Source: Enterobacter cloacae (GTDB lineage Bacteria; Pseudomonadota; Gammaproteobacteria; Enterobacterales; Enterobacteriaceae). From it: 64,000 nt of DNA. A program made the position numbers and the translations under genes. Numbering within the stretch: position 1 is the first letter of the stretch; each line of letters opens with the position of its first letter. Positions 10,622 to 28,094 of this stretch are shown in pieces. Location of the stretch: the NCBI GenBank assembly GCA_014169315.1, contig AP022133.1:1054001-1118000 (forward strand). The letters run 5' to 3'. The notes below the pieces were generated by a model. It was given only the letters and a program-made list of their open reading frames with translations. It did not search any database and had not been told where the DNA came from.

Positions 10622-11127
10622 GCCGCACCCCGCGGATCCGGGTTGTCCAGCACCTCGTCGGTCTGGGCTTTACGCCAGTCCGCCAGACGCTGATGTATTG
10701 CTTTATCGTGGGTCGCCAGAATTTGCGCGGCCAGCAGAGCGGCGTTTGCTGCCCCCGCTTTGCCAATCGCCAGCGTACCGACAGGAATGCCGCGCGGCAT
10801 CTGAACGATGGAATAGAGGCTGTCGACGCCGCTTAACGCCGCGCTTTGCACTGGAACGCCCAGTACCGGCACCAGCGTTTTGGCGGCAATCATGCCGGGC
10901 AGATGTGCTGCGCCGCCCGCACCGGCAATGATCACCTCGTAGCCGTTCTCTTCAGCGCTTTCGGCGAAGCTGAACAGTTTGTCGGGTGTGCGGTGTGCGG
11001 AAACCACTTCAACGTGGTGCGGAACATTCAGGATTTCGAAGATTTCGGCGGCGAACTGCATGGTAGCCCAGTCGCTTTTGGACCCCATCACGATGGCGAC
11101 ACGCGCCGGATTATTGCGGGAAGACAT
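10618..11127 (-). CDS. purE: PurE, N5-carboxyaminoimidazole ribonucleotide mutase
   Basis: Moves the carboxyl group of N5-CAIR to carbon, giving CAIR; 169 residues, almost identical to E. coli. Active-site motifs [10 protein letters not shown] (residues 14-23), [10 protein letters not shown] and [11 protein letters not shown] are intact. The start at 11127 ([10 protein letters not shown]) has the ribosome binding site AGGAG upstream. It is the first gene of the operon, behind a PurR-type operator. Confidence 0.96.
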
Positions 11128-11176
11128 GCGTCTTAAAACTCCTGTGGTGCGAAACACACTGCTTTCGAGGGCACAG

Positions 11177-11214
11177 AGAATAGCATGTAATACGGGCAAG
11201 GAAAACGGTTGCGC
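11177..11214 (-). promoter_or_regulatory. purEK promoter with PurR operator
   Basis: On the minus strand, TTTTCC (11205-11200) and TATTCT (11182-11177) are separated by 17 bases and form a sigma-70 promoter. The sequence GCGCAACCGTTTTCCT at 11214-11199 matches the PurR consensus ACGCAAACGTTTTCGT at most positions and covers the -35 element. This agrees with known PurR repression of purEK in E. coli. Confidence 0.85.
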
Positions 11215-11253
11215 GGCTAAAACTTGAGCCGTTGTGGACCTCCGCGCATAACA

Positions 11254-11280
11254 AAACAGACCGCATTTGGCGGTCTGTTT
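11254..11280. terminator. Hairpin AAACAGACCGC/GCGGTCTGTTT
   Basis: Perfect 11-base inverted repeat with a 5-base loop, ending in TTT on the + strand and TTT on the minus strand. It lies between the purE promoter and the small gene ending at 11302, so it most likely terminates the minus-strand transcript of the small genes. Confidence 0.8.
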
Positions 11281-11301
11281 AGCGAAAGTCTCTGGCGATT
11301 T

Positions 11302-11487
11302 TTACAGGAGATTGCCTGCTGTCAGGTTTTCTTTATCGAATGCATGGCCGACATCAATATGATTTTCCATGCTGGTGTCGATATTCGAACCTGCTTCTGG
11401 GGTGGAGAAGCGATTCTCCGCCGCCATCGCGCCAGTGGACAGGACAGCGGCCAGCAGCAGGGCGCTCACGATGCTGATTGTTTTCAT
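11302..11487 (-). CDS. Small secreted protein of unknown function
   Basis: 61-residue product. Residues 1-22 (MKTISIVSALLLAAVLSTGA and onward to MAAE) form a clear signal peptide; the mature part is only about 38 residues, acidic and polar. The ATG at 11487 is preferred over upstream starts because AAGGAACAGAG precedes it. I do not recognise the family. It sits downstream of another small exported protein on the same strand, which suggests related envelope or stress roles, but this is inference. Confidence 0.6.
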   Translation of the reverse strand: MKTISIVSALLLAAVLSTGAMAAENRFSTPEAGSNIDTSMENHIDVGHAFDKENLTAGNLL

Positions 11488-11557
11488 TCTCTGTTCCTTG
11501 CTCATCATATTGTCGCTGTCGCTTGTCTGTTTACTGGCGGCACGGCAATCAGGGGTC

Positions 11558-11767
11558 TTATTTCGTCAGTTCTGCAGTCATGTGAACGCGGTTGTTGAAC
11601 CGTGCGCTGGTGATTTTGTAAGACGCACCCTGTTCAGCAGCCTGAGCGGCAATTTTGGCTTCTGCGCGGTCAAGGGTAGAGGCGGTAGCGCTGACGCTCT
11701 GAGCGAAAGAACCGAAAGAGATCATAGAGAGAGCAGCAACTGAAACGAAAGTTTTGATGGATTTCAT
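11558..11767 (-). CDS. BhsA/McbA-type DUF1471 periplasmic protein
   Basis: 69-residue exported protein. Signal peptide MKSIKTFVSVAALSMISFGSFAQ is followed by the DUF1471 (YdgH/BhsA/McbA) pattern: SATASTLDRAEAKIAAQAAEQGASYKI then a short beta region, ITSARFNNRVHMTAEL. Members of this family are small periplasmic stress and biofilm-related proteins. The start at 11767 follows TTAAGGAATACGACC, a good ribosome binding site. The specific paralogue cannot be assigned. Confidence 0.75.
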   Translation of the reverse strand: MKSIKTFVSVAALSMISFGSFAQSVSATASTLDRAEAKIAAQAAEQGASYKITSARFNNRVHMTAELTK

Positions 11768-11918
11768 GGTCGTATTCCTTAAGTATTTTGTCTTGGATAG
11801 GGCGTGTTGCCCTGATGTGATAAATAATAGAACGACCACGGATTGGTTAAAATCGAAACAATTTGCGAATGTTATTCAAAAAAAATGAATGATATTAAAC
11901 GTGCAGTGTGGGGGGAAT

Positions 11919-12641
11919 TCAGAAAGGAAATGCGATCAGCTCGACGCCTTCAGGCGTGACTTTCACCATCGACCCTTCACTGTGCCAGGCACCCAGTACC
12001 ACGCGGTGGGCGGGTTCGTCGTTGGCCGTCAGTGTGTGTACGTCCGGGCGATGGGTATGGCCGTGGATCAACCACTGGACGTGGTGCTTTTCCATCACGC
12101 TGACAACTGCCTGGGGGTTAACGTCCATGATGGTCATGGATTTGCTGCTGTTGGCGGCCTTACTGCCCGCGCGCATTCTGGCGGCGATGCGGTTACGGAT
12201 AAACAGCGGCAGAGCCAGGAAAACTTTTTGGATCCACGGGGTGTGGACTTTGGCGCGAAACGCCTGGTAGCCGGTATCGTCGGTGCAGAGCGTGTCGCCG
12301 TGCATGATCAAAACGTTACGACCATAGAGGTTGAGTACCTGTTCTTCAGGCAACAACGTCATACCGCTTTCACGGGCGTAGCGCTTACCGAGCAGGAAAT
12401 CACGGTTGCCGTGAATGAAGTAGCAGGGGACGCCGGAATCAACCAGCGCTTTAATGGCTGCCGCCATTTCGTGATGGAGCGGGTTGGGATCATCGTCGCC
12501 AATCCAGGCTTCAAACAGGTCGCCGAGGATGTAAAGCGCATCGGCGCTTTTCGCTTCACCGCGTAAAAAACGCAGAAAACCGGCGGTGATCGCCGGTTCT
12601 TCTGTTTGCAGATGCAAATCTGCAATAAAGAGTGTCGCCAC
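11919..12641 (-). CDS. lpxH: LpxH, UDP-2,3-diacylglucosamine pyrophosphatase
   Basis: Calcineurin-like metallophosphoesterase catalysing the fourth step of lipid A synthesis, giving lipid X and UMP at the membrane. Metal ligands appear in DLHL (residues 8-11), [25 protein letters not shown] and GHTHRPDVH. Length 240 is as in E. coli. The gene starts 3 bases after ppiB stops, so the two form an operon. Confidence 0.95.
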
Positions 12642-12644
12642 GAA

Positions 12645-13139
12645 TTACTCGCTGACGGTCACGCTTGTGATCACAACGTCTTCTTTTGGAACGTCCTGAT
12701 GCATACCGCTGCGGCCAGTAGAAACGGCTTTGATCTTGTCAACGACGTCCATGCCTTCAACGACTTCGGCAAATACGCAGTAGCCCCAACCCTGCAGGCT
12801 TTCGCCAGAGAAGTTCAGGAAGTCGTTGTCAGCCACGTTAATGAAGAACTGTGCGGTAGCAGAGTGAGGAGCCTGAGTACGCGCCATTGCCAGCGTGCCA
12901 CGGGTGTTTTTCAGACCGTTGTTCGCTTCGTTTTTAATCGCTTCTTTCGTCGCTTTCTGGTTCATGCCAGGTTCGAAGCCGCCGCCCTGGATCATAAAAC
13001 CGTTGATTACGCGGTGGAAAATGGTGTTGTTGTAGAAACCTTCGCGGCAGTAGTCCAGGAAGTTTTTAACTGTTTCAGGCGCTTTGTCATCAAAAGTCTT
13101 GATTACGATATCGCCATGATTAGTGTGGAAAGTAACCAT
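12645..13139 (-). CDS. ppiB: PpiB, cytoplasmic peptidyl-prolyl isomerase B
   Basis: Cyclophilin of 164 residues that accelerates cis-trans isomerisation of prolyl bonds. Catalytic-site segments [13 protein letters not shown] and [16 protein letters not shown] are intact. There is no signal peptide, as expected for the cytosolic form. Its start lies 174 bases from that of cysS on the other strand, so the intergenic stretch must hold both promoters. Confidence 0.95.
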
Positions 13140-13313
13140 TTTTGCATCCTGTTCCGTTATTGTGGTGCGTCAACCCGTGTTCGGGTCACATATAGGGGCT
13201 TGTTATAGCATAACCACAGGATGCGATCACCTTGCATTGTGTGCTGCTTCGGGTTTGAATTACGGGTAGAATACCCGGTTTTCGTCCACACACGTGTTTA
13301 CATGGAATCTTCG

Positions 13314-14699
13314 ATGTTAAAAATCTTTAATACAATGACGCGCCAAAAAGAGGAATTTAAACCTATCCATGCCGGGGAAGTCGGCATGTACGTGTGTGGT
13401 ATTACGGTTTACGATCTCTGTCATATCGGCCACGGCCGTACGTTTGTTGCCTTTGACGTAGTTTCACGTTACCTGCGTTTCCTGGGCTACAACCTCAAGT
13501 ACGTGCGCAACATCACCGACATTGACGACAAAATCATTAAACGCGCTAATGAAAATGGCGAAAACTTCGTCGCGCTGGTCGATCGCATGATCGTGGAAAT
13601 GCATAACGATTTTGATGCGTTAAATATTCAGCGTCCGGACAGCGAGCCGCGTGCAACCCACCATATTCACGAAATTATCGACATCACCGAAAAACTGATC
13701 GAACGCGGTCACGCTTACGTAGCGGATAATGGTGACGTGATGTTCTCGGTACCGACTGATCCAACTTACGGCCAGCTTTCCCGTCAGGATCTGGATCAGC
13801 TGCAGGCCGGTGCCCGCGTTGACGTGGTCGACGTGAAGCGTAACCCGATGGACTTCGTGCTGTGGAAGATGTCCAAAGAGGGCGAGCCAAGCTGGCCGTC
13901 TCCGTGGGGAGAAGGGCGTCCTGGCTGGCACATTGAGTGCTCGGCGATGAACTGCAAGCAACTGGGTAACCATTTCGACATTCACGGTGGCGGTTCGGAT
14001 CTGATGTTCCCGCACCACGAAAACGAAATTGCGCAGTCTACCTGTGCCCACGGCGGCGAGTATGTTAATTACTGGATGCACTCCGGGATGGTGATGGTTG
14101 ACCGCGAGAAGATGTCGAAATCACTGGGCAACTTCTTCACCGTGCGTGACGTGCTGAAGTATTACGACGCGGAAACCGTGCGTTACTTCCTGATGTCCGG
14201 CCACTATCGCAGCCAGCTGAATTACAGCGAAGAGAACCTGAAGCAGGCGCGCTCTGCGCTGGAACGTCTGTACACCGCACTGCGTGGTACCGACAAGTCC
14301 GTCGCGGCAGCAGGCGGTGAAGCGTTCGAAGCACGCTTTGTTGAGGTGATGAACGATGACTTCAACACACCAGAAGCCTATTCCGTACTGTTCGATATGG
14401 CGCGTGAAGTGAACCGTCTGAAATCTGAAGATATGGCTGCCGCTAATGCGCTGGCGTCACATCTGCGCAAACTCTCTTCCGTGCTCGGCCTGCTGGAGCA
14501 GGAGCCAGACGTGTTCCTGCAGAGCGGGGCCCAGGCGGACGATGGCGAAGTGGCAGAGATTGAAGCACTGATCAAGGCACGTCTGGAAGCGCGTCAGGCG
14601 AAAGACTGGGCGGCGGCAGATGCAGCACGTAATCGTCTGACCGAAATGGGTATCATCCTGGAAGATGGCCCGCAGGGCACGACGTGGCGTCGTAAGTAA
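13314..14699 (+). CDS. cysS: CysS, cysteinyl-tRNA synthetase
   Basis: Class I aminoacyl-tRNA synthetase charging tRNA-Cys. The HIGH motif appears as [13 protein letters not shown] as [10 protein letters not shown], and zinc ligands include the Cys in YVCGITVYD and HIECSAMNC with downstream HENE. The start at 13314 gives [15 protein letters not shown], matching E. coli, and 461 residues. Starts further upstream would add a non-conserved extension. Confidence 0.97.
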
Positions 14700-14708
14700 G
14701 CCTGTTAT

Positions 14709-14790
14709 GCCCGGTGGCGCTTATGCTTACCGGGCCCACAGGAGCATGAGTGTAGGCCGGGTCAGGCGTAGCCGCCACCCGGCTTTTTTT
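14709..14790. repeat. Pair of REP-like palindromes after cysS
   Basis: GCCCGGT...ACCGGGC at 14709-14735 and GCCGGGT...ACCCGGC at 14756-14783, the latter followed by seven T. They form a BIME-like pair in head-to-tail arrangement between convergent cysS and the LacI-family gene, and the second can act as the cysS terminator. Confidence 0.75.
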
Positions 14791-15805
14791 ATGCCGATTC
14801 TCTGGTGATAAGCTGCCCGGAAAGGGTGATCCGTTGCGTTTGCAGCCCAGGCTCTTTCAGATTGCGTATCATCAACCCGGCGGCCTGGCGTCCCGTTTCT
14901 TCGCTGGCGGATGAAACGTAAGTAAACGACGGCGAGGTGAGGTTCACGTGCAGCATATCTTCAAAACCGACCAGCGCGACCTGTTGGGTTAAAAACACAT
15001 CTTTCCCCACGGTACGTCCCACCTGATGAATGCCGGAAATAGAGCCGATCATCGCATCCGGTGAGTGGCAGAGCAGGGCGGTGATGGTGTTGTTCTTTTC
15101 CAGTAGCTGGCGAGTGGCAAAACCTGCCGCCAGCGTATCATCGCTACAGGCAGGAGAATACTCGTCACGCCAGAGCAGCCCGTTTTGCGTCATTGCGCTG
15201 CGAAAGCCGAGCAGACGCTGCTCGCGGATAAGACAACCTTCACGCCCACCAATGTAGGCAATATTGCGGTGTCCACGCTCAATAAGGTAACGCGCCGCAA
15301 GGTTTGCCGCCTGGCGGTTATCGCGCATCACCAGGTTGCATTTTTCGTCCAGCAAAGACTGGGAGACCGCTACCAGCGGTAAGGGACACTGGCGGATGTG
15401 TTCCGGCAGGGCGGCAGTGCGAGTGTCAGAGGCAAGGTAAATCACGCCAGCCACGCCTTGCTGTTTAAACGACAGCAGACAGCGCTCAAGATGGTCGTGG
15501 TCGTTCAGCGGCTGGCCGAGAAAAACCATATACCCCTGTTTTTCCAGCTCCTGAACAATGCTCGCCATCACCTTGATGGAAAAGCTGTCGCTGAAATCGC
15601 GCAGGATCAGGCCAATCAGGTTGGAGGTGTTGGCGCGAAGGTTGGCAGCGGCAACTTTATGCACATAGCCCAGCGTATTGATGGCAGCATTGACCTTCCC
15701 GATCGTTGCCTCTGAGATTTTCCCTTTCTGGCGTAGGACCAGCGAAACGGTAGAGACCGAAACCCCCGCGTGCTTTGCCACATCAATAATGCTGACTTTC
15801 TTCAA
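14789..15805 (-). CDS. LacI-family regulator, MalI-like
   Basis: Transcriptional repressor of the LacI/GalR family, about 338 residues. The N-terminal helix-turn-helix reads VSIIDVAKHAGVSVSTVSLVLRQKG, followed by the hinge helix (AAANLRANTSNLIGLI) and a periplasmic-binding-protein-like sugar sensor. The helix-turn-helix resembles E. coli MalI. A TTG start at 15805 is favoured because GGGAG lies 7 bases before it; an ATG at 15829 has no such site. It lies downstream of a PTS permease on the same strand, and probable operators are at 17545-17575. Confidence 0.85.
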   Translation of the reverse strand: MKKVSIIDVAKHAGVSVSTVSLVLRQKGKISEATIGKVNAAINTLGYVHKVAAANLRANTSNLIGLILRDFSDSFSIKVMASIVQELEKQGYMVFLGQPLNDHDHLERCLLSFKQQGVAGVIYLASDTRTAALPEHIRQCPLPLVAVSQSLLDEKCNLVMRDNRQAANLAARYLIERGHRNIAYIGGREGCLIREQRLLGFRSAMTQNGLLWRDEYSPACSDDTLAAGFATRQLLEKNNTITALLCHSPDAMIGSISGIHQVGRTVGKDVFLTQQVALVGFEDMLHVNLTSPSFTYVSSASEETGRQAAGLMIRNLKEPGLQTQRITLSGQLITRESA

Positions 15806-15844
15806 AACTGCTCCCTGAAATTTACCCATTATCAGCCAGTTAAG

Positions 15845-15876
15845 ACAACGTCTCCCAGCGTACAGGAGACGTGTCG
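15845..15876 (-). terminator. Hairpin between the PTS gene and the LacI-family gene
   Basis: Inverted repeat ACGTCTCC...GGAGACGT with further partial pairing outside it (GACA/TGTC). No strong U-run follows, so it may act as an mRNA-stabilising or attenuating hairpin inside the operon, not as a full terminator. Confidence 0.5.
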
Positions 15877-15889
15877 TTCAGGCATCTTA

Positions 15890-17344
15890 TTATTTGCCGA
15901 TTATGGTGGACATGGTCTGGGCGATAAACTGTGCTCTGGCACCGAAAATCACCTGGATACCGTTGTCTCCGACGAAGACCACGCCGCGTGCGCCCAGGCC
16001 GTTGAGGCCGTCTTTATCCACCGCATCGCTTTTCGCCACTTCCAGGCGCAGACGGGTGATACAGGATCCGACGGAATCGATGTTATGTGCCCCGCCCAGC
16101 AGACCGATGATCTCAGTTGCGATTTCAGTGTCGGTTTTATCGTCTGCACTGGCGGTGACTTCGGTGCGGCCCGGCGTTTTCACGTCGAAACGACGGATAA
16201 CGAAGCGGAACGTGAAGTAGTAAATCATCCCCATTGGAATGCCGATGATAATGGCGTTCAGGAAGTTGGTCTGGTAACCGTTAAATGATGGCAGGATCCC
16301 GAACGACAGATAATCAATAAAGCCTGCAGAGAAAGATTTGGCAATATGGGCATGCAGCAGGTACATGGTCATGTAGGCCAGACCCGCCATAATGGCGTTG
16401 AAGACATACAGAACTGGAGCCACAAAGATAAAGGTGAACTCAACCGGTTCGGTGATCCCCGTCAGGAAGCAGGTAAGTGCCGCAGAGAACAGAATACCGG
16501 CAGCAATTTTCTTATTCTTCGTGTGCGCTTCGTGATACATCGCCAGGCAGGCCGCAGGCAGTGCAAACAGCATCAGCGGGAATTCACCCTGCATGAACTT
16601 ACCGGCATTTTGGTACGTATCGCTGCTGAAAGACTTCGCCCCTTCTTCCAGCATTTTGAACCAGATGGTCTGGTCACCGTGGATCACCTGGCCTGCCTGG
16701 GTGGTGTAGTCCCCAAACGAATACCAGAAAGAGGGATACCAGATGTGGTGCAGACCAAGCGGGATCAATGCGCGTTCCACCAGACCGAAGATAAAGGTCG
16801 ATGCCGCCTGATTATCCCCGTTAACGACAACAGAAAGTGCATCGATACCGGACTGAATATGTTGCCAGATATACGGCAACAGCAGGCCGAGCAGGAACGA
16901 CAGAAACGCCGTTGCAATCGCCACAAAGCGTTTACCGGAGAAGAAACCGAGGAACTCCGGCAACTGCATGGTGTGAAAACGGTTGTAACACCATGCCGCG
17001 AGAATACCGCAGATAAGACCGCCAAAGACGCCCATCTGCAGCGTCGGGATGCCGACGACCATCGCATATTTCCCGCCCTGAGAGGCCATCTCCGGCGTGA
17101 TGCTGAGCACGGTATTGATGGTGATGTTGGTGACAAACACCGAAACGGCCGCAGAGAGCGCCGCAATGCCCGATTCTGACGCCAGACCGACAGCGGAGCC
17201 AATCGCGAAGAGCATCGGCAGGTTATCAAAAATAACCCCGCCCGCGTTCATCATCAGCGGCAGGTGGAACTTATCGCCAAAGGCCAGCAGCAGGCCCGCA
17301 GCGGGAAGCAGTGAAATTGGCAGCATTAAGGCGCGACCAATCAT
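15890..17344 (-). CDS. PTS EIICB permease, glucose/maltose type, N-terminus disrupted
   Basis: Membrane EIIC domain (about 1-390) with GLHHIWYPSFW and GITEPVEFTFIFVAP signatures, followed by an EIIB domain whose phosphorylated Cys is in GSCITRLRL. No EIIA domain is attached, so a EIIA-Glc-type partner is needed. The chain opens at MIGRALMLPISLLP, about 15 residues short of relatives. The missing start (ATG at 17502, MSLISGFV) is separated from the body by a 109-base IS5-type element with an in-frame stop. Removing the element and one target copy restores MSLISGFV-KSLSKLS-MIGRALMLP in frame. The gene may be silent or read from an internal start; ATG 17344 has only a weak ribosome binding site. 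Confidence 0.8.
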   Translation of the reverse strand: MIGRALMLPISLLPAAGLLLAFGDKFHLPLMMNAGGVIFDNLPMLFAIGSAVGLASESGIAALSAAVSVFVTNITINTVLSITPEMASQGGKYAMVVGIPTLQMGVFGGLICGILAAWCYNRFHTMQLPEFLGFFSGKRFVAIATAFLSFLLGLLLPYIWQHIQSGIDALSVVVNGDNQAASTFIFGLVERALIPLGLHHIWYPSFWYSFGDYTTQAGQVIHGDQTIWFKMLEEGAKSFSSDTYQNAGKFMQGEFPLMLFALPAACLAMYHEAHTKNKKIAAGILFSAALTCFLTGITEPVEFTFIFVAPVLYVFNAIMAGLAYMTMYLLHAHIAKSFSAGFIDYLSFGILPSFNGYQTNFLNAIIIGIPMGMIYYFTFRFVIRRFDVKTPGRTEVTASADDKTDTEIATEIIGLLGGAHNIDSVGSCITRLRLEVAKSDAVDKDGLNGLGARGVVFVGDNGIQVIFGARAQFIAQTMSTIIGK

Positions 17345-17367
17345 CGATAACTTAGACAGCGATTTAA

Positions 17368-17476
17368 GGAAGGTGCGAATAAGTCACCAAACGCAAAAAA
17401 ACGCCTATGTAAGTGATTGAATTTAATTGACTAAAAGTTTCATTTTCGTTGCGGAGGGTACTTATTCGCACCCTCC
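17368..17476. mobile_element. 109-bp IS5-family MITE
   Basis: Terminal inverted repeats GGAAGGTGCGAATAAGT (17368-17384) and ACTTATTCGCACCCTCC (17460-17476) match at 16 of 17 positions and resemble the IS5 end GGAAGGTGCGAA. The element is AT-rich inside and has no transposase. Flanks are TTAA on the left (17364-17367) and CTAA on the right (17477-17480), consistent with the YTAR-type 4-base IS5 target duplication with one substitution. It sits within codon 9 of the PTS gene. Confidence 0.85.
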
Positions 17477-17481
17477 CTAAC

Positions 17482-17502
17482 AAACCCTGATATCAGACTC
17501 AT
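17482..17502 (-). pseudogene. Severed 5' end of the PTS permease gene
   Basis: ATG at 17502 preceded by GGGGGGAAATCAGC encodes MSLISGFV before the MITE is entered. Translation would then read 12 element-encoded codons and stop at TGA. The joined sequence across the element gives a normal EIIC N-terminus, so this is the original start of the gene at 15890-17344. Confidence 0.75.
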
Positions 17503-17544
17503 GCTGATTTCCCCCCGAGTAGCGCTTTTTATGCGCTGTTATTG

Positions 17545-17575
17545 TAAGTAGAACGTTTTAGTAGAACGTTCTACT
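17545..17575. promoter_or_regulatory. Twin operators for the MalI-like repressor
   Basis: AGTAGAACGTTCTACT at 17560-17575 is a perfect 16-base palindrome, and AGTAGAACGTTTTAGT at 17547-17562 is a second, imperfect copy overlapping it. The central AACGTT resembles MalI/LacI-family operators. The position, about 45-70 bases upstream of the original PTS start, fits repression of the PTS operon and of anything transcribed to the right. Confidence 0.65.
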
Positions 17576-17590
17576 TATCGTGAGGAAAGT

Positions 17591-17647
17591 ATGAAAACTG
17601 CGCAACTTAATTTTCACATTTCAACAGATGAAATAGTGATTATTTGA
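17591..17647 (+). pseudogene. 18-codon stub behind a strong ribosome binding site
   Basis: ATG at 17591 follows GAGGAAAGT, an excellent Shine-Dalgarno sequence, immediately to the right of the LacI-type operators, but the frame stops after 18 codons. It may be the surviving 5' tip of a divergent sugar-utilisation gene lost when the neighbouring cassette arrived, or a short leader peptide. No homology is recognised. Confidence 0.3.
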
Positions 17648-17912
17648 AGTTGATCGATAATTAACCTCGATGGATGTGGGGGATTTTATCCCCTTTCTGC
17701 GGGGTACGCTTCGGGGAGAGGCGGGTTTTTTCCCGGCGCTGCGCCTGGTTACAGTGGTACAGCGGTGTGAGTGATAACGCCAGGCCCCTGGTGACGTGTT
17801 ATATATGGTCAAGGGTTCATGCAAATGCATGAACCCTGATAACAAATGCAGTTTAATCGATGAGTTAATAAAAACGGATGATCAACTGCTTCTGTTTTTT
17901 ACAATTACTTTT
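17648..17912. other. Non-coding stretch between PTS operators and the arylsulfotransferase-like gene
   Basis: No convincing gene is seen. A perfect 11-base inverted repeat AGGGTTCATGC/GCATGAACCCT with loop AAAT lies at 17812-17837 and would form a strong hairpin downstream of the minus-strand gene ending at 17913; no U-run follows it. Confidence 0.5.
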
Positions 17913-19442
17913 TTATGAATTTACCGTAATTGATGCTGTAGTGATTAAGTCAGATAGCTCGGTTTCGTTAAATAATCTTGCACGATAGCCCTCTGCAGGG
18001 AATTGAGGCGCGCCATCAGGTAGAGAAATAACATCATAGATGGTGGCAATCATATTACCGTTCACATCAGAGATAAAGAATGAACGGGCATGGTTAGTAA
18101 AAATAACGAAGTAATCATCATGGTCAAACACTCCCCCCATAAAATCGGTCCACTGGATGATGGGGGTAGTTGGCAGTTCAATCGGTGCATGAATTTCCAC
18201 TGCAGTTTTTGCTGCTAAGTCTACAGCATAGAATAGAATGCGAGCCGGAGGTGTTGAATAGGTATCGGTGGTTGGATCATCATTTATAGGGCGAATGACA
18301 GGGCTTCCATCTGCACCAACACAGGATCTATTATCAAAGACAGATAAAACAAATTTACCTACGGTAGGGTCGATATTTCCTGCAAATGCACTGTTATTAG
18401 TGATGCACACAGTGTGAGCACCATTTTCATAGTTAGTAATTCCGGTATTATCGATATGAGTAGTCGCTTGAATTGCCGGGAATTGAGGGTTGAAATTACC
18501 CGTGTCGATCGCCCACAAGATACTACCATCAACGATAGATACGCCAAAAGTTGTACTCGTGGTGCGAGAGTGCGCAATAATTGCTTCCTCATTGTTTGGA
18601 CTGCTTTGGATCCATGTGAGTGAATTCAAATGAACATCATTAGGTGTGTTGTTATTTAATATCTGAGAGCCGCTATATTCACTGGTATAGTTTTTTGCCC
18701 AAATCATTTTACCTGTCTGATCGTTGAACTTCAGGATACAGGAGTCTTGTGCCATCGTATTGCTTATTCGATTAGGACTATCGCTACCAAACATATAGAT
18801 ATCGCCTGCTGAGTCCCAGACTAAATCGTGAGTGTTTGAATAGTGATTGCCATTAGAATCACGCATGTCGAATTCAAAAATGACATTACCGAGAATGTCA
18901 ATTTTGAAAAAGCGTCGACCGTACCATGAAAAATCTTCATCGCTACCGGTATAAATGTAGCCATTGTGAATTCTCAACGGCTGGAGATGATAAACCGATA
19001 AAAAATTAAAACGCAGGTCACCGTTTTCATCGTAACCTCGGCCAGTTGATTGCATTAACCAACTATTTCCCCAGACAGATGTAAATAACGTAGGATCTGT
19101 TTGTTCAATATCGAGGTGGAAGATAACGGATGGATCATAGACCTGATCCACCGTGCTAACAGAGAATGGTTGGTTGTAAACCTCAGTTCCAGTTTCGTCC
19201 TTAAACACAACCTGGACGTTGTTGGCATATTGCGCGTAAAGGCCAATAACAGGGATTTTTATGGTTTGAGAAACGGCATAAATCAGATCCGATGTATAGG
19301 TAAAATCTACGCTGGTTGGGCTGGTTGTCCTTTTTGATACAGTGTAAGAATAACTTACTGGTGTATCTGAAGTAAAATAAATATATGCAGCGAGCTGATT
19401 GTCGGCCGGTGCAAGTTCAGTTTTAACATAAGTAATTGTCAT
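17913..19442 (-). CDS. Arylsulfotransferase (ASST)-like protein without signal peptide
   Basis: 509 residues, related to PAPS-independent aryl sulfotransferases (AssT), which move sulfate between phenols. After an N-terminal beta-sandwich (about 1-100) comes a propeller region. His205 in THDLVWD, His271 in VHLNS, Arg293 in HSR and His343 in GAHTV are placed like the catalytic His252, His356, Arg374 and His436 of uropathogenic E. coli ASST; FDNRSC follows at 369-374. Known ASST enzymes are periplasmic with a cleaved signal and DsbL/DsbI partners; here the start MTITYVKTEL (ATG 19442, ribosome binding site AAAGGAATTC) has no signal and no dsbLI lies nearby. Upstream genes encode a holin and a peptidoglycan endopeptidase, which may provide export. 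AT-rich compared with flanking core genes. Confidence 0.75.
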   Translation of the reverse strand: MTITYVKTELAPADNQLAAYIYFTSDTPVSYSYTVSKRTTSPTSVDFTYTSDLIYAVSQTIKIPVIGLYAQYANNVQVVFKDETGTEVYNQPFSVSTVDQVYDPSVIFHLDIEQTDPTLFTSVWGNSWLMQSTGRGYDENGDLRFNFLSVYHLQPLRIHNGYIYTGSDEDFSWYGRRFFKIDILGNVIFEFDMRDSNGNHYSNTHDLVWDSAGDIYMFGSDSPNRISNTMAQDSCILKFNDQTGKMIWAKNYTSEYSGSQILNNNTPNDVHLNSLTWIQSSPNNEEAIIAHSRTTSTTFGVSIVDGSILWAIDTGNFNPQFPAIQATTHIDNTGITNYENGAHTVCITNNSAFAGNIDPTVGKFVLSVFDNRSCVGADGSPVIRPINDDPTTDTYSTPPARILFYAVDLAAKTAVEIHAPIELPTTPIIQWTDFMGGVFDHDDYFVIFTNHARSFFISDVNGNMIATIYDVISLPDGAPQFPAEGYRARLFNETELSDLITTASITVNS

Positions 19443-19669
19443 GATTGAATTCCTTTTTGGTTCGTAAAATATTTTTGTCAGGGCAGCACGATGTCGCCAA
19501 TAAAAATAGCGAGCTGTTTTGACAGTGTGCAATAACCTTACCGTGAAGATAATATATTGCCTTTGGTTGTTTATTGAAAAATAAGATGAATATAATCTGG
19601 TTTTATAATTCTCCTTTTTCTATACTGGCTGCGTAAACAGCGATAGGTGTAATCGTTTTTTAGATACTC

Positions 19670-20056
19670 TTAAGGATACATTTTTCGTGAGAGTTGAAAA
19701 TGAACGCCATCCTTTATTTCCGTCCAGTTACCTCCCCACTCAACATCAACATTCAACTCACGGGCCGCCTGAAACACAGCTGTTGCAATTGTCTGGTAAT
19801 GTTTAAACTCCCATGACGCCGTACCATTGATAACTGCGAATATATCAACGGCATGCCCCGTTAAATGTCTGCTTTTCGACGTTAATGATTTTCCTGATGC
19901 CAGTAGCTCAAGTTGCCGTTTTTGGGTTCTTAACCCTTCTGAAATACCGAAATCAATCGGTGATAATTTCAATGCTTTTCTCATTACATCAGAAAGATCC
20001 TTATGTACACCTTTAAGATTCCTTTCAGTAGTCTTACTGAATTCATGATTTATCAT
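19670..20056 (-). CDS. M15-family L-Ala-D-Glu-type endopeptidase (endolysin/ChiX-like)
   Basis: 128-residue peptidoglycan peptidase of the M15 (VanY/T5 endolysin) group. Zinc ligands are His64 and Asp71 in SRHLTGHAVD and His119 in DGVHF, with the substrate-site segment ISEGLRTQKRQ. There is no signal peptide, so it needs a holin to reach the wall. Start ATG 20056 is in the last 14 bases of the holin gene, after TCTGGAGAG. The same fold is found in phage lysis modules and in ChiX of the Serratia chitinase secretion operon. Confidence 0.85.
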   Translation of the reverse strand: MINHEFSKTTERNLKGVHKDLSDVMRKALKLSPIDFGISEGLRTQKRQLELLASGKSLTSKSRHLTGHAVDIFAVINGTASWEFKHYQTIATAVFQAARELNVDVEWGGNWTEIKDGVHFQLSRKMYP

Positions 20057-20369
20057 TATTCTCTCCAGAGATTTTCTTCCAGTAATAATTAAGGGCGACA
20101 ACGCCCATTGCACCTGATATACCACTAACCGCAAGCGAAGTATGAAATACTGTTCCGAGACTTTGTGACATCAATCCAGCAAGTACGCCGGTAAATCCTG
20201 ACACGATAATTTGTGCCAATGCCGCGAATAAATTTCTTCCCGACTGACCAGACTTAACGTCAAGGAGATATCTAACAAGACCTCCCCATGCGCCGAATAA
20301 TATTATGTAGATCCAGCTAAAAAATGCATTTAATGATGGGTCTTTCCATGGCAAAACAATTACCTCCAT
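20043..20369 (-). CDS. Holin (LydA/class III-like small membrane protein)
   Basis: 108 residues with three hydrophobic segments (about 14-33, 46-66 and 76-95) and a charged C-terminus KKISGENNDKS, as in phage holins of the LydA type. It would make inner-membrane lesions that let the adjacent endopeptidase out. The reading frame overlaps the endopeptidase start by 14 bases, so the two are translationally coupled. No other phage genes (spanins, integrase, structural genes) are near, which argues against a complete lysis module of a prophage. Confidence 0.8.
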   Translation of the reverse strand: MEVIVLPWKDPSLNAFFSWIYIILFGAWGGLVRYLLDVKSGQSGRNLFAALAQIIVSGFTGVLAGLMSQSLGTVFHTSLAVSGISGAMGVVALNYYWKKISGENNDKS

Positions 20370-20448
20370 AGATTTTTTAAGTAAAAAATTTTACCGCATG
20401 ATGAGATTACTTTTTCGTAAAAAGCTATATGCATGTGCTATGCAGTAA

Positions 20449-20490
20449 ATAATAAACGTTGAGCAACCCTGTTTCGTGATGGATGTCACA
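20449..20490 (-). promoter_or_regulatory. Predicted class II CRP promoter of the holin operon
   Basis: The sequence TGTGA-CATCCA-TCACG (minus strand, 20490-20475) differs from the CRP consensus TGTGA-N6-TCACA by one base. TATTAT at 20454-20449 is a possible -10 element, which places the CRP site near -41, the class II position. The holin ATG at 20369 is about 70 bases further on. This is a prediction from spacing and consensus only. Confidence 0.5.
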
Positions 20491-20607
20491 CGGAATGCAA
20501 TTAATAGATTTTGTCGATCAATTTTGGTGAAATGATAGTTATGTATTATTGATGGTGAAGATTATATTTAGTAGTGGAATACATAAGAGAGAGCAGGGGG
20601 AGAGGGG

Positions 20608-20637
20608 GTAACCCGATAGTGCGAGGACTACCGGGTT
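20608..20637 (-). terminator. Hairpin after ybcJ
   Basis: AACCCGATAG...CTACCGGGTT forms a stem with one mismatch just past the ybcJ stop on the minus strand. The following tract is C-rich, so termination strength is uncertain. Confidence 0.5.
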
Positions 20638-20648
20638 GGGGGTGGGAA

Positions 20649-20861
20649 TTATGCTGTAACCGTAACGCTCTGTCCTTCAAAGCTCACGGTCTGACCTGCG
20701 ACAATCTTACAGCGCTTGCGGGTTTCCACCGCGCCGTCGACTTTGACCAGCCCATCCGCGATCGCGATTTTCGCCTGCGCGCCACTTTCGCTCCAGCCTT
20801 CCAGCTTGAGCAGATCGCACAGCTCAACGTGCGGGTGTTTACCTAAAGAAAAATTGGCCAT
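20649..20861 (-). CDS. ybcJ: YbcJ, small S4-domain RNA-binding protein
   Basis: 70-residue protein nearly identical to E. coli YbcJ. It is almost entirely an S4-like RNA-binding fold: LCDLLKLEGWSESGAQAKIAIADGLVKVDGAVETRKRCKI. The cellular RNA target is not established. The start at 20861 (MANFSLGKHPH) matches E. coli; folD stops 2 bases upstream, so they share an operon. Confidence 0.93.
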   Translation of the reverse strand: MANFSLGKHPHVELCDLLKLEGWSESGAQAKIAIADGLVKVDGAVETRKRCKIVAGQTVSFEGQSVTVTA

Positions 20862-20863
20862 TT

Positions 20864-21730
20864 TTACGCGTCCTCTACGTCGTGATACTCCTCGCACGCC
20901 TGCAAGGTATTCTGAATCAATGTTGCTACGGTCATCGGGCCAACACCGCCCGGTACTGGGGTGATGTAAGACGCACGCGCTGCGGCATCTTCGTAAACCA
21001 CGTCGCCGACAACCTTGCCGCTTTCCAGACGGTTAATTCCGACGTCCACGACAATCGCACCCTCTTTAATCCACTCACCTGGAATAAAGCCTGGTTTACC
21101 CACTGCGACGATCAGCAGATCGGCGTTTTCTACGTGGTGACGCAGGTTTTTGGTGAAGCGGTGGGTCACGGTGGTGGTGCAGCCAGCCAGCAGCAACTCC
21201 ATGCTCATCGGGCGGCCAACGATGTTGGATGCACCAATGACAACGGCGTTCAGGCCGTAGGTGTCGATGTTGTAGCGCTCCAGCAACGTGACGATCCCGC
21301 GAGGGGTGCACGGACGCAGGCGCGGTGCACGCTGGCACAGGCGACCCACGTTATACGGGTGGAAACCGTCGACATCTTTGTCTGGTGCAATACGCTCCAG
21401 CACCTTCACGTTGTCGATGCCCGCAGGCAGCGGCAACTGAACCAGAATGCCGTCGATTGCTTTATCGGCATTCAGGGTGTCAATCAGCTCAAGCAGTTCT
21501 GCTTCGCTGGTGGTTTCGGGCAGATCGTAGGAGCGGGAGACAAAACCCACTTCTTCACACGCTTTGCGCTTGCTGCCGACATAAATCTGCGATGCCGGGT
21601 TGCTACCAACCAGCACAACAGCCAACCCTGGGGCTCGTTTTCCGGCCGCTCTGCGCGCCTTCACTTTTTCCGCAACCTCAGAGCGCACCTGCTGCGCAAT
21701 CGTTTTACCGTCAATAATCTTTGCTGCCAT
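20864..21730 (-). CDS. folD: FolD, methylenetetrahydrofolate dehydrogenase/cyclohydrolase
   Basis: Bifunctional one-carbon enzyme interconverting 5,10-methylene-THF, 5,10-methenyl-THF and 10-formyl-THF. Motifs include the catalytic Lys in [21 protein letters not shown], and the NADP-binding [24 protein letters not shown] closes the active site. Length 288 equals that of E. coli. First gene of the folD-ybcJ unit. Confidence 0.96.
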
Positions 21731-22039
21731 CAGAGAGAAGATTCCGTCTGTAACGTTTGAAAGGGGGATTGCCTATATTTTGTCAGAAGCGAGCGCCGCT
21801 GTCAGTCACCCTTTGCGAGATTTCCACAACTGGCTGCAAAACCCCTGGTTTTGACATGGTCAATTTCCTAGGCGGGATTAGGATGTGGCCTGGTGAAATG
21901 GCAGCGTTTTGACATATTTTAATATTCGTTCCTGAGCTACTTTGTCTCCTCCGAAATAAGCTTTCAATTAATCGATTGAACGTATTTCTTATTCCCGGTT
22001 TTTCGCGGGAAGGGTTATTTACATTTTAAAGGAATAGAC
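21731..22039 (+). promoter_or_regulatory. Regulatory region upstream of fimA
   Basis: 309 bases without a gene. TTCAAT-TAATCG-ATTGAA at about 21964-21981 is a perfect spaced palindrome, and TTCCCG/CGGGAA in the leader (about 21992-22011) can form a hairpin just before fimA. No invertible fimS-type segment with flanking repeats is visible, which fits a Salmonella-like system controlled by FimZ/FimY and not by inversion. Confidence 0.5.
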
Positions 22040-22603
22040 ATGAAATTCAGCAATATTGCATCTACCGTTGTTGCCGCTCTGGCCCTGGTCGCGGGTGCCG
22101 CTCATGCAGAAGATACTACTACGCCCGTTTCCGTTAATGGCGGTACCGTGCATTTTAAAGGTGAATTAGTGAATGCCGCGTGCTCTGTTAATACGGCATC
22201 TTCTGAACAGACGGTTAATCTGGGTCAGTACCGTACCGCGAAATTCACCAAAGTGGGCGACACGACCTCCAATATTCCATTCACTATCGAACTGAATGAT
22301 TGTGATCCACTGGTAGCAAAAACTGCCGCTGTTGCTTTCACCGGTCAGATTGATGCGACCGATAAAACCCTGCTGGCGGTATCCTCTGGCAGCAACGACA
22401 ACGCCGCGAAAGGCGTGGGTATCGAGATCCTCGACAGCAAATCCAGCACGCTGACACCGGATGGCGCGACCTTCTCTGCCGCACAGAACCTGATTGAAGG
22501 CACCAACACCCTGAACTTCACCGCGCGTTATAAATCCACGGCGGCAACTGCCGAGCCAGGCCAGGCGAACGCGGACGCCACTTTCGTAATGAAATACGAA
22601 TAA
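22040..22603 (+). CDS. fimA: FimA, major type 1 fimbrial subunit
   Basis: 187-residue pilin. Signal peptide of about 23 residues ([11 protein letters not shown]). The pilin fold has conserved Cys in VNAACSVN and ELNDCDP, predicted to form the disulfide, a donor strand region after the signal ([16 protein letters not shown]), and a C-terminal ATFVMKYE beta-zipper for chaperone binding. First gene of fimAICDHF, with AAAGGAATAGAC before the ATG. Confidence 0.92.
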
Positions 22604-22671
22604 TTCCTCTGCACAGGGATGTTTAGGCCTCAGGGATGAGGCCCGTCATACGCTAATGCCAGGAACGAAGG

Positions 22672-23214
22672 ATGACAAGGATCGGGAAACTGCTGCTAGC
22701 CCTTACGATGGCTCAACCAGTATTCGCACATACCGTAGTGATCGACGGCGGCAAGGTTCACATCAGAGGTGAGCTGGTCAACGGTGGGGGCGCCGTGGCT
22801 CCTGACAGCCAGAGTATGCGTATCGATATGGGGCAGTACCGGACCAATTCCTTTTCCGGCGTGGGCAGCTTTTCAACGGTCAACGTACCTTTTACCGTAC
22901 GGCTGCTGGACTGCAGCGTGGATGTCTCGCGCACCGTAGGGATCCAGTTCCAGGGCGTCACGCCGGCGGAAGATCCACAGGTTTTTCTGGCGACATCACG
23001 GCCTGGTGAAACGCCCGTGAGCAGCGGTGTTGGGTTGGCACTTTTTGACGAACAGCAACGCCAGATTATCCCGAACGCGACGGCGGTCAGCTGGTTGCCC
23101 ATCAATACCCAGGAGCTCGCGTTTCATTTTAGCGCCCGCTATCGGGCTATTTCCGAACACCTCGTGCCAGGCAATATTCAGTCAGATGTCTGGTTCACGT
23201 TGATTTATCCATAA
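22672..23214 (+). CDS. fimI: FimI, minor fimbrial protein
   Basis: 180 residues with a signal peptide ending near VFAH, then a pilin domain starting [15 protein letters not shown] and ending WFTLIYP. It parallels FimA, including MGQYRTNSF, but the first pilin Cys is missing: VNGGGAVAP replaces VNAACSVN, while the second Cys (LLDCSVD) remains. FimI in related organisms is thought to stop or anchor the pilus. Position between fimA and fimC matches Salmonella. Confidence 0.85.
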
Positions 23215-23257
23215 CGCCTTCTACGCCTGCGAACATATTATTAAAGGTATTGTTGTG

Positions 23258-23950
23258 ATGAACTCCCTAATTAAGCCAGGACTGATTTTATCTTTTATTT
23301 TGCTGATGGTTTCTGCTTCCGCCAGTGCCTCCGGTGGTATTGCACTGGGGGCCACGCGCGTGATTTATCCGGCAGACGCGAAACAAACTTCGCTGGCGAT
23401 CACCAACAGCAATAAGCAAGAGCGCTATTTAATTAATGCGTGGATTGAGAATGCCAATGGGCAAAAGGAAAAAACCTTTGCCGTCACGCCACCCTTGTTT
23501 GTCAGCGAGCCGGACAGCGAGAACACATTGCGCATTATTTATGCCGGTCCGGCGTTGCCCACTGACCGTGAATCGCTCTTCTTTATGAACGTGAAGGCGA
23601 TCCCGTCAGTGAGTAAAACGAAAATGGAGGACAACAACGTCCTCCAGCTGGCGATTTTGTCGCGCATCAAGCTGTTCGTACGCCCGAATAAACTGGCGAT
23701 GCAGCCGGAAGAAGCGTTGTCTCAACTGCGCTTTGAGCGTGTCGGCAACCACCTTAAGGTGAGTAATGCCTCGCCATATTACATCACGCTGGTCAACCTG
23801 AAGCTGGGCGGTAAGGCTCTGGACAACCTGATGATTGCGCCTAAAAACTCGGCGCAGCAGGTGCTGCCGGATGCGGCAAGCGGCACGCTTTCCTGGCAGA
23901 GCGTGAATGACTACGGCGCGATTACGCCGGCGCGCAGCGTCAATCTGTGA
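23258..23950 (+). CDS. fimC: FimC, periplasmic pilus chaperone
   Basis: 230-residue PapD-type chaperone that folds fimbrial subunits by donor-strand complementation. Signal peptide of about 25 residues ([11 protein letters not shown]), N-terminal domain with [22 protein letters not shown], and the subunit-binding strand ENNVLQ-like segment [20 protein letters not shown]. Start ATG 23258 follows a GTG; either gives a valid signal. The stop overlaps the potential GTG start region of fimD. Confidence 0.92.
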
Positions 23951-23964
23951 TCAGAGACAGGGCG

Positions 23965-26532
23965 ATGAACAATCACCACGGGCGTTACTGCCCGGTAGCA
24001 CTGGCGCTGATGGCAGCGCTCTGGCCGCAAACTGGCTGGAGCGAAAGCTACTTCAACCCCGCATTTCTCTCCGACGACACCGCTAACGTGGCGGATTTAT
24101 CGCGTTTTGAACAAGGACACCTGCAGGCTCCAGGCATCTATCGCGTGGATCTCTGGCGTAATGATGAGTTTATTGCCACTCAGGATGTGCGCTTTGAGCA
24201 GGCGACTGATGATACGTCACCGGTTGCGGGTGGGCTAACGCCGTGCATCACGCGCGCGATGCTGGACCGCTTTGGCGTCAATATTGCGGCGTTTCCTGAG
24301 CTGGCAAACACCAGGGGCGACACCTGTATCCCACTGAAGACGGCTATTCCCGGCAGCGTGGTGGCGTTCAATTTTGCCTCGCAGCGCCTTAATATCAGCC
24401 TGCCGCAGGTGGCAATGCAGAACAGCGCCCGCGGTTACATTCCCCCCGAACAGTGGGATGAAGGCATCCCTGCCGCACTGTTGAATTACAGCTTCACCGG
24501 CAACCGGGGGAGCGAGGACGACAGCTATTACCTGAACCTGCAAAGCGGGCTGAACTATGGTGCCTGGCGGTTACGCAATAATGGCGCATGGCGTTACACG
24601 CAAAACAACGGACAGCGGAACAGCAGCTGGCAGAATATTGGTACCTGGGCGCAGCGCACCGTGATCCCACTCAAAAGCGAGCTGGTACTGGGCGACAGCA
24701 ATACCGGGAATGATGTTTTCGACAGCGTTGGTTTTCGCGGCGGGCGACTCTACTCCTCCGACAATATGTACCCGGACAGTCTGCAAGGCTACGCGCCAAC
24801 CGTGCGCGGTATCGCCCGCACGCCAGCAAAAGTGGTCGTTCGTCAGAACGGTTATGTCATTTATCAGAGCTATGTTCAGCCCGGTGCGTTTGCTATTACC
24901 GATCTGAACCCGACCTCCTCAAGCGGTGACCTGGAGGTGACGGTCGAAGAGAAGGATGGTAGCCAGCAACGCTATACCGTGCCGTACTCCACCGTGCCAT
25001 TGCTACAACGTGAGGGACGCTGGAAATATGACCTGGTGGCGGGGGACTACCGCAGCGGTAATAGCGAGCAGGATACGCCGTTCTTCACTCAGGGCACGTT
25101 GATTGCCGGCATAGCCGATGGCTACTCGCTTTACGGTGGTACACAGCTGGCGTCGCGCTATACCGCGCTGGCCATCGGTGCCGGGAAAAATCTCGGTGAC
25201 TGGGGCGCGGTTTCCCTCGATCTCACCCACGCCCGCAGCCAGCTCGCGGACGACAGCCGCCATGAAGGCCAGTCGCTGCGTTTCCTCTACGCGAAGTCAC
25301 TTAACGGATTCGGAACCAACTTCCAGCTGCTGGGCTATCGCTACTCCACGAAAGGGTTCTATACCCTGGACGATGTGGCCTGGCGCTCAATGGAAGGTTA
25401 TCAGTATGGCGATAGCCAGGATGATGACGGCGTGCCGGATGTACAGAGTTATCACAACCTGACGTGGAATAAGAAAGGGCGTTTCCAGCTCAATATTTCC
25501 CAGTCGCTGGGGGATTACGGTTCGGTGTATCTCTCTGGCAGCCAGCAGAGCTACTGGGGAACCAGCGAGTCGAACGTCTGGTATCAGCTGGGTTACGCGG
25601 GCGGCGTGCAGGGGATCAACTACTCCGTGTCCTGGTCGTGGAACAAGTCCGTGGGGATCGACGGTACGGACAGGATCGCGTCGTTTAACGTCTCTGTACC
25701 GTTCAGTCTGTTTACCCGCCACGGTTATCGCCGCGATAACGCGATCGACAGAGCCTACGCCACGGCGTCGGCAAGCCGTAATAGTGACGGTGACACCAGC
25801 TGGCAGACCGGGGTCAGCGGGACGCTGCTTGACGATCGTAACCTGAACTACAGCGTCACGCAGGGGCACACCAGTAATAACGGTGCAAGCGGCAGTGCCA
25901 GTGCCAACTGGCAGGCGACCTACGGTACGCTGGGCGCGGGGTATAACTACTCGCGCGATCAGCACGATCTCAACTGGCAGCTTTCTGGTGGCGTGGTGGG
26001 CCATGCCGATGGCATAACCTTCAGCCAGCCACTGGGTGATACCAACGTGTTGATCAAAGCTCCGGGGGCAACAGGCGTCAGCGTGGAAAACCAGACCGGG
26101 GTGAAAACGGACTGGCGGGGTTATGCGGTGATGCCGTATGCCACGGTCTACCGTTACAACCGCGTAGCGCTGGATACCAACACCATGAGTAACAACACCG
26201 ACATCGAAAACAACGTGAGCAGCGTGGTACCGACCAAAGGCGCGCTGGTGCGTGCCAGCTTCGATACCCGCATTGGCGTGCGCGCTTTGCTGACGGTGAA
26301 GCGCGGTAACCAGCCGGTACCGTTTGGTGCCGTAGTGCGCGAAACCCAAAGCGGCGTGACCAGCATGGTGGGAGATGACGGACAAATTTATTTAAGCGGG
26401 CTACCGCTGGAAGGTGAACTGTTGATTCAGTGGGGCAACGGGATGCAGTCCCAGTGTCGTGCGCACTATCGCTTACCGCCTGAAAGCCAGAGCCAGGCCA
26501 TTACCCTGGCGGGGGCAAGCTGTGATCGCTAA
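23965..26532 (+). CDS. fimD: FimD, outer-membrane usher
   Basis: 855-residue usher that recruits chaperone-subunit complexes and extrudes the pilus. Signal peptide ends about residue 27 (TGWSES). The N-terminal domain begins [23 protein letters not shown], the barrel has [28 protein letters not shown] (plug region), and the C-terminal domain ends GASCDR with paired Cys. ATG 23965 is preferred over the GTG at 23947 since it has a purine-rich AGAGACAGGG site. Confidence 0.93.
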
Positions 26533-26542
26533 CAGGAACCCA

Positions 26543-27550
26543 ATGATGAACATTTTCCGCAACGTAGCCGGTGTTGCCCTGCTGTGTGGCGCGCTGCCCG
26601 CGTGGGCGACGGTGTGCCAGAATTCGAATGGCGTCGCGAAGGACATCTCGTATGACCTCTCAAACGTTTTTAACAGCTCCAACAACAAACCGGGCCAAAT
26701 TATCACCCTGGCGCAAAAATCCGGGATGGTGGGGGTCAGCGCGATTTGCCCGAAGGGAACCACCGGAAAATCGACTATGCGTAGTTATGTCACCGATCTA
26801 CCTGTTACGACGGAGATCGACAGCTATAAGTATGTGCAGCTCAACGACTACCTTGACGGTGCAATGCAGATCCACGATGACTTCGCAGGCACGTTCTACC
26901 CGCCAGCAAGTTACATCCAGATGGGGCAGCACCCCAACGTGCCGAACAACAAGGCATTTCCGGTCACAGATTCAAAGCTGGTCTTTCGCCTGAGGGTGAC
27001 GCGGCGGTTTATCAACATGGTGGTGATCCCACAGCAGACCATGTTCCGGGTGTATGTCACCACCACGTCGTCCGATCCGCTTAACACGCCGGTGTATACC
27101 ATCAGCTACAGCGGGACGATTCAGGTTCCGCAAAGCTGTGAGGTTAATGCCGGCAGGGTCGTCGAGTTTGATTTTGGCGACATTGGAGCCTCACTGTTCA
27201 GCCAGGCCGGAGCTGGAAACCGCCCTCAGAAGGTTTCGCCACAAACTAAAACCATCGCCATCAAATGCACCAACGTAGAGGCTAATGCTTACCTGACGAT
27301 GCGAATCGAAGCCGAAAAAGTCTCTGGTAATGCGCTGGTATCGGATAACGCCGATCTGGGGTTTGTGGTTGCTAACGAAAGTGGTACACCGCTCATCCCC
27401 AACAACCTGACCAGCAAAATACCGTTCCGTCTGGATGATAGCGCCCAGGCACAGGTGGCGATCCGCGCCTGGCCGGTCAGCATCACGGGTAACAAGCCTA
27501 AGGAAGGACGTTTCTCCTCTCGCGGTTATCTGCGCGTGGATTACGATTAA
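26543..27550 (+). CDS. fimH: FimH, tip adhesin
   Basis: 335 residues, the length of Salmonella FimH. Signal peptide ends ALPAWA; the lectin domain starts TVCQNSNG and covers about residues 24-190; the pilin domain follows (GTIQVPQSCEVNAGRVVEFDFGDI) and ends RGYLRVDYD. Expected to bind mannosylated host or environmental glycans; fine specificity is not predictable. The start after AACAGGAACCC is chosen at 26543. Confidence 0.88.
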   Translation: MMNIFRNVAGVALLCGALPAWATVCQNSNGVAKDISYDLSNVFNSSNNKPGQIITLAQKSGMVGVSAICPKGTTGKSTMRSYVTDLPVTTEIDSYKYVQLNDYLDGAMQIHDDFAGTFYPPASYIQMGQHPNVPNNKAFPVTDSKLVFRLRVTRRFINMVVIPQQTMFRVYVTTTSSDPLNTPVYTISYSGTIQVPQSCEVNAGRVVEFDFGDIGASLFSQAGAGNRPQKVSPQTKTIAIKCTNVEANAYLTMRIEAEKVSGNALVSDNADLGFVVANESGTPLIPNNLTSKIPFRLDDSAQAQVAIRAWPVSITGNKPKEGRFSSRGYLRVDYD

Positions 27551-27559
27551 GGAGGCGAG

Positions 27560-28084: not shown

Positions 28085-28094
28085 AACTGACCGC

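Follow-up and report, generated by a model that had tools for sequence, protein, structure and literature searches.

A holin, an M15 endopeptidase and a signal-less arylsulfotransferase in Enterobacter: a candidate type 10 secretion-like release cassette

Introduction

Type 10 secretion systems (T10SS) are recognized here by a holin gene, a peptidoglycan hydrolase gene beside it, a position outside a prophage and a conserved adjacent cargo gene. Spanins are a further component of the Serratia and Yersinia systems. The ChiWXYZ system of Serratia combines a holin and an M15 endopeptidase near a chitinase at a non-phage site. In the Salmonella system ChiH/ChiP/ChiA the holin, the hydrolase and the cargo share one small locus, and the accessible parts of the two reports consulted name no spanin for it (PMC10109510, PMC13284979). 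Whether T10SS cargo is released with or without lysis is disputed, according to the accessible parts of two papers (PMC13284979, PMC10847048).

For bacterial PAPS-independent arylsulfotransferases (ASSTs) neither the natural substrates nor the roles are known, and AssT of E. coli CFT073 is a periplasmic enzyme with DsbL/DsbI and a needed disulfide, as described in the accessible part of one report (PMC13426309). A literature search returned no report joining an arylsulfotransferase with a holin or type 10 secretion with a sulfotransferase, and nothing on an Enterobacter chromosomal holin in secretion. The combination of holin and aryl-sulfate sulfotransferase gave only a review of vesicles from lactic acid bacteria.

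Here a trio of genes is described that places an ASST-like protein directly behind a holin and an M15 endopeptidase. It lies in the window, the whole stretch of 64,000 nucleotides of Enterobacter cloacae DNA that was analysed.

Results and discussion

Composition of the trio

All three genes lie on the minus strand at about the positions given in the earlier note, between a PTS gene on one side and an S4-domain gene and folD on the other (families by Pfam; the neighbours' names cysS, ybcJ and folD are presumed). The holin (20043..20354, minus strand) belongs to PF16083 (E 6.1e-17) and to the phage protein family phrog_785 and has three hydrophobic peaks. Its start had been placed at an ATG at 20369. 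Because this codon is unconserved (absent in L021, L122 and L120) and all seven trio loci retain the arrangement GGAGG-N8-TTG, the start was moved to the TTG at 20354, most likely the correct one, which gives 103 residues. The ribosome-binding site GGAGG occupies 20363..20367 on the minus strand. The 14-base overlap between the holin and M15 genes (20043-20056) was described correctly.

The M15 endopeptidase (19670..20056, minus strand, 128 residues) is ChiX-like. It is assigned to PF13539 (E 3e-12) and to the endolysin family phrog_465 (E 3.1e-55), and its best match in the PDB is ChiX (5opz, E 2.4e-38). The ASST-like protein (17913..19442, minus strand, 509 residues) contains PF05935 (E 2.4e-11) and PF17425 (E 8.8e-10); the PF05935 score of 43.7 bits lies above the curated cut-off of 24.2. 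NCBIfam provides no name for any of the three genes.

The active site and N-terminus of the ASST

The proposed catalytic set of the ASST is conserved: His205, His271, Arg293 and His343 do not vary among the 26 relatives aligned. A search of the PDB with the single sequence gave no match. The profile search found E. coli AssT (3elq) with an E-value of 8.6e-5, which is carried by the N-terminal part. Two further 3elq stretches are individually non-significant (i-Evalues 3.3e3 and 53). By hand count, these weak stretches place His205, His271 and Arg293 opposite His252, His356 and Arg374 of the AssT chain, and three active-site positions thus coincide. His343 is outside the match and is placed by reading only. 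As a guide to active-site residues the alignment is weak beyond the N-terminal part. His252, His356, Arg374 and His436 are taken by us to be the catalytic residues of AssT in active-site numbering.

No signal peptide is apparent, in agreement with the earlier reading. The call was made from the conserved start and from hydrophobicity, the first residues having no strong hydrophobic stretch, and not by a signal-peptide program. The statement that DsbL/DsbI are missing holds for the neighbouring genes, none of which is a Dsb gene, and not as a genome-wide claim. Unlike E. coli CFT073 AssT, a member of the same family, the protein of the trio thus shows neither an apparent Sec signal nor the neighbouring Dsb genes of a periplasmic AssT with its Dsb partner.

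A conserved gene unit

The genus search for the ASST and the holin covered 61 genomes, the window genome included. The ASST has a match in 18 genomes: seven are full-length with 86-100% identity, one is partial with 85% (G012, in which only the end of the ASST is left and no cassette is present), four have 58-60%, one of them split into two pieces, and six have about 30%. A holin match is present in 15 of the 61 genomes. Six of these holins are intact (91-100%), one is shortened (70%, G461), one is a remnant with stops (67%, G015) and a further seven matches have at most 49% identity. G015 contains an additional holin match of 48% elsewhere, and the window genome has a second one, also 48% identical, in a region that resembles a phage (L125).

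The seven genomes with the holin of this clade, intact or shortened, are exactly the seven with a full-length ASST of at least 86% identity. The M15 gene lies between the two in each of them, with one gene order throughout. Five different chromosomal surroundings, judged by eye from neighbouring ORFs, are found upstream: that of the window, that shared by L021 and L123, that of L122, that shared by L119 and L121, and that of L120. The median omega is 0.094 for the holin and 0.069 for M15 (15 pairs each, from six intact holins and six intact M15 genes; overlap codons were omitted, as were the shortened holin and the truncated M15), and 0.093 for the ASST (21 pairs). The ASST run recognised holins in three loci, and the holin and M15 values come from a repeat run. 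Omega values of about 0.09 and 0.07 mean that purifying selection acts on both lysis genes. The claim that the trio forms a unit is borne out by its presence in 7/61 genomes, the invariant order, the five surroundings, purifying selection and a conserved CRP-type promoter; there is good evidence for the gene unit and for its single clade.

Two of the seven cassettes carry a lesion in a lysis gene. In G454 (L119) the M15 protein ends after 81 residues, and in G461 (L123) an in-frame shortening leaves a holin of 66 residues; the ASST is intact in both. Related proteins of Citrobacter amalonaticus (P0008, 73%) and Salmonella bongori (P0025, 40%) lie outside the context comparison, and the lysis pair has no match in the E. 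coli genomes searched.

A phage origin is improbable

A phage-lysis remnant beside an unrelated gene would account for the membership of both lysis genes in phage families and for G015, which keeps only a decayed copy. This explanation is very improbable in view of the omega values of about 0.07-0.09 and of the distance to phage proteins. All 1242 phage records that match M15 and all 31 that match the holin are below 60% identity (the best among the matches listed are 59.4% and 52.1%, respectively). Searches of viral contigs with M15 and the ASST, which reach close relatives only, gave no relative. The ASST has no match in phage records and a single match in plasmids, at 30% identity. None of the eight neighbouring proteins tested by Pfam is a phage protein. 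A pair confined to prophages beside an independently varying ASST is not what is found in the trio clade. A prophage remnant was rejected by selection, the non-phage neighbours and the lack of a close phage relative.

M15 has a match in 41 of 392 genomes drawn from the family, a sample that seemingly lacks the other trio genomes; the best match outside the window genome is 61%, and wider stretches were retrieved for 19 of the 41. The order-wide search found M15 in 9/247 genomes, with 52% as the best value outside the window genome.

The promoter region and the M15-ASST gap

A CRP-like site (20475..20490, minus strand) precedes the holin gene. It deviates from TGTGA-N6-TCACA by one mismatch in the window and is exact in the other six trio loci. 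In the window taken alone such patterns are at chance level (2 found, 1.76 expected). The earlier impression of a CRP-dependent promoter draws its support from the exact consensus in the other six loci and not from the window. The putative -10 element TATTAT lies at 20449..20454 on the minus strand, and its spacing from the CRP-like site, counted by eye, fits the geometry of a class II CRP promoter. The block spanning the CRP-like site and the putative -10 element has a mean pairwise identity of 0.917. The corresponding values are 0.786 upstream of the CRP-like site, 0.662 between the -10 element and the ribosome-binding site, and 0.673 for the gap between M15 and the ASST.

This gap of 227 bases (19443..19669, minus strand) is poorly conserved and contains neither a terminator-like site on the minus strand nor a spanin-like ORF. 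One weak promoter-like match is present at 19580-19551, with the total for the region at chance level (8 found, 9.7 expected). A separate promoter of the ASST could lie inside the gap.

Comparison with type 10 secretion systems

The trio has a holin gene (PF16083, phrog_785), overlapped by the gene of a predicted peptidoglycan hydrolase, the ChiX-like M15 protein, and it lies outside a prophage (eight neighbouring proteins by Pfam; phage relatives below 60%). A putative cargo gene, the ASST, is adjacent in 7/7 genomes. The spanins of the Serratia and Yersinia systems have no counterpart in the M15-ASST gap.

As in the Serratia system, a holin and an M15 protein that matches ChiX stand near a candidate cargo enzyme in a non-phage setting; the candidate is an ASST instead of a chitinase. 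At a locus of the Serratia type (L111), which served as T10SS control, a GH18 chitinase is accompanied by a holin of PF05106 and by a gene that resembles a spanin, of which the M15-ASST gap of the trio has none; the M15 protein of L111 is almost ChiX in the tree. The earlier note had matched the pair to ChiW and ChiX. This is not supported: trio and ChiX groups form separate M15 clades (100/100 each), the holin belongs to PF16083 instead of PF05106, and the gap has no spanin ORF. Orthology with ChiWX was rejected by the M15 tree and the holin family. In that tree the labels "phage" (L101-L104, L106, L107, L109) and "chi" (L110, L113, L116) were assigned by visual inspection of the adjoining ORFs, and the loci with neighbours tested by Pfam are L105, L108, L111, L114, L115 and L118.

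The Salmonella system resembles the trio in the small locus and differs in two respects: its hydrolase is muramidase-like and related to TtsA instead of M15, and it has the regulator ChiR instead of a CRP-like site.

ChiX-like M15 genes were also seen near RHS-repeat proteins (L108 2141-8246, L115 4551-8521) and near a 1488-residue fucosidase/glycoamylase protein (L118 3533-8370). These may be further pairs of the T10SS type, and with these examples an M15 gene beside a possible cargo is a recurring arrangement.

The ASST lineage and its other neighbours

In eight other genomes the ASST lies directly behind a 5'-nucleotidase gene, with no adjacent holin or M15: four of the genus (L184-L187, 58-60%), three of the family (L027-L029, 55-60%) and a Pluralibacter MAG (L006/G259, 85%). 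These operons share the ASST lineage, the signal-less state and an adjacent zinc-ribbon protein with the trio and differ from it in the lack of a holin or M15 beside them. The four genus genomes have no holin match. In the ASST tree the trio sequences form one clade (100/99) nested among the nucleotidase-linked signal-less ASSTs. Because these have no adjacent holin or M15, the lack of a signal peptide appears to have preceded the cassette, for which a single acquisition is the most parsimonious history. The absent signal peptide, which had been read as evidence for a T10SS, is thus no evidence for the cassette and was rejected as such.

These sister ASSTs bear on the possibility that the ASST is cytoplasmic and that holin and M15 make up a domesticated lysis unit with a separate function, which has no more than its place and perhaps a transcript in common with the ASST. 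Signal-less relatives without a neighbouring cassette speak for this explanation. It is also in line with four genomes (G259, G273, G283, G405) that contain the ASST and are not among the 41/392 with an M15 match, the ASST and M15 family searches being taken as the same draw. The damaged lysis gene beside an intact ASST in 2/7 cassettes and the weak promoter-like match in the gap point the same way, as do the sulfatase neighbours of distant ASSTs. Intracellular work is credible for the wider ASST family because the ASSTs of about 30% identity adjoin sulfatase genes. Such a cytoplasmic role remains rather unlikely for the trio, whose genes stay together in 7/7 genomes and five surroundings, even away from the nucleotidase cluster.

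The distant signal-less ASST clade (about 30%; L023-L025, L030-L033) lies beside sulfatase-like genes and in some cases near PTS genes. The sulfatase assignment is by Pfam in L023 only; the others and the PTS genes were recognized by resemblance.

Downstream of the ASST, six of the seven trio genomes have a convergent zinc-ribbon protein, for which no Pfam family scores above the cut-off, and beyond it a 5'-nucleotidase gene (Pfam in L003). In the window genome this cluster is about 0.71 Mb from the trio. Stretch L099 of that genome (8574-15975) encodes the zinc-ribbon protein together with three 5'-nucleotidase-like proteins and a channel of the Tsx type.

A palindrome of 24 bp, GGGTTCATG-N6-CATGAACCC, lies downstream of the ASST (17813..17836). 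Allowing for up to one mismatch, the genome has exactly two copies of it, one behind the ASST and one behind the first 5'-nucleotidase gene, and this links the trio to the distant nucleotidase cluster. It follows the ASST in all seven trio loci, the window included, and the first nucleotidase in 5/7, the window genome among them; it was not found there in L021 and L123. The palindrome is probably a shared terminator or operator. A CRP-like pattern occurs upstream of the first nucleotidase in 2/7 Enterobacter regions (L021 and the window genome); L028 and L029 have it on the opposite strand. Common motifs of the holin and nucleotidase promoters are limited to matches of 10-15 bases.

The cassette might release several proteins, and nucleotidases encoded in the linked cluster would then act together with the ASST in scavenging outside the cell. 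The palindrome confined to two places, the cluster adjoining the trio in 6/7 genomes and the CRP-like pattern in 2/7 regions would fit. The N-termini of the nucleotidases, on the other hand, look like signal peptides by eye, so that no holin is needed for them to reach the periplasm, and the distance of about 0.71 Mb in the window genome also speaks against it. Release of several proteins is improbable.

Proposed release of the ASST

Co-occurrence, the five surroundings, low omega, the resemblance of M15 to ChiX, non-phage neighbours and the conserved promoter block suggest that the holin-M15 pair lets the signal-less ASST out of the cell. The M15 genes beside a GH18 chitinase (L111), RHS proteins (L108, L115) and a fucosidase/glycoamylase (L118) favour the same conclusion. 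Against it stand the lysis-gene lesions with an intact ASST in 2/7 cassettes, sister ASSTs (55-85%) without a cassette, the lack of a spanin, the possible separate ASST promoter in the gap and the ASSTs of about 30% near sulfatase genes. The balance tips slightly towards a T10SS-like release cassette with a PAPS-independent arylsulfotransferase as its cargo. Comparison with the known systems indicates that such a cassette was likely assembled independently, with a new cargo, and by analogy release of the ASST is the most likely purpose of the trio.

In this release cassette cAMP-CRP would switch the promoter on when preferred carbon is short. The holin would gather in the inner membrane and then open, and the signal-less M15 protein would enter the periplasm and cut the peptidoglycan. 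The ASST would fold in the cytoplasm, exit probably via lysis of a fraction of the cells or a local lesion, and act outside on aryl sulfates. We infer that transcription continues across the 227-base gap, that the holin and M15 act as pore and hydrolase, and that the ASST is released as an active enzyme and crosses the outer membrane without spanins.

A more specific history has just short of an even chance. An ASST that elsewhere lies behind a 5'-nucleotidase would have been rewired once in Enterobacter to an independently recruited, spanin-less holin-endopeptidase pair, and would thereby have become a released public enzyme, a new class of cargo and part of a minimal new type of T10SS. The sister species would then be natural controls without a cassette. 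Together, the minimal cassette, these sister species and the natural lysis-gene variants make both the role of the ASST and the question of lysis in T10SS testable.

The insertion site

In 18 of 20 relatives a stretch of approximately 17698..20652 is missing at the corresponding site, and the folD/S4 gene lies close to the PTS gene without a trio. Of the other two, G015 has a holin remnant and the palindrome, and the stretch of L136 is insufficient for a call. The folD-PTS interval of G015 (L124) contains a decayed copy of the same insertion, from which M15 and the ASST are gone. No tRNA gene was found at 10000-30000 of the window.

An insertion of about 110 bases that resembles a MITE is present at 17367-17477 of the window, within the 5' end of the PTS gene, where relatives are uninterrupted. 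It has terminal inverted repeats of 18 bases with two mismatches. Similar DNA is found at 134 places in 36 E. coli records and also in phage HK97.
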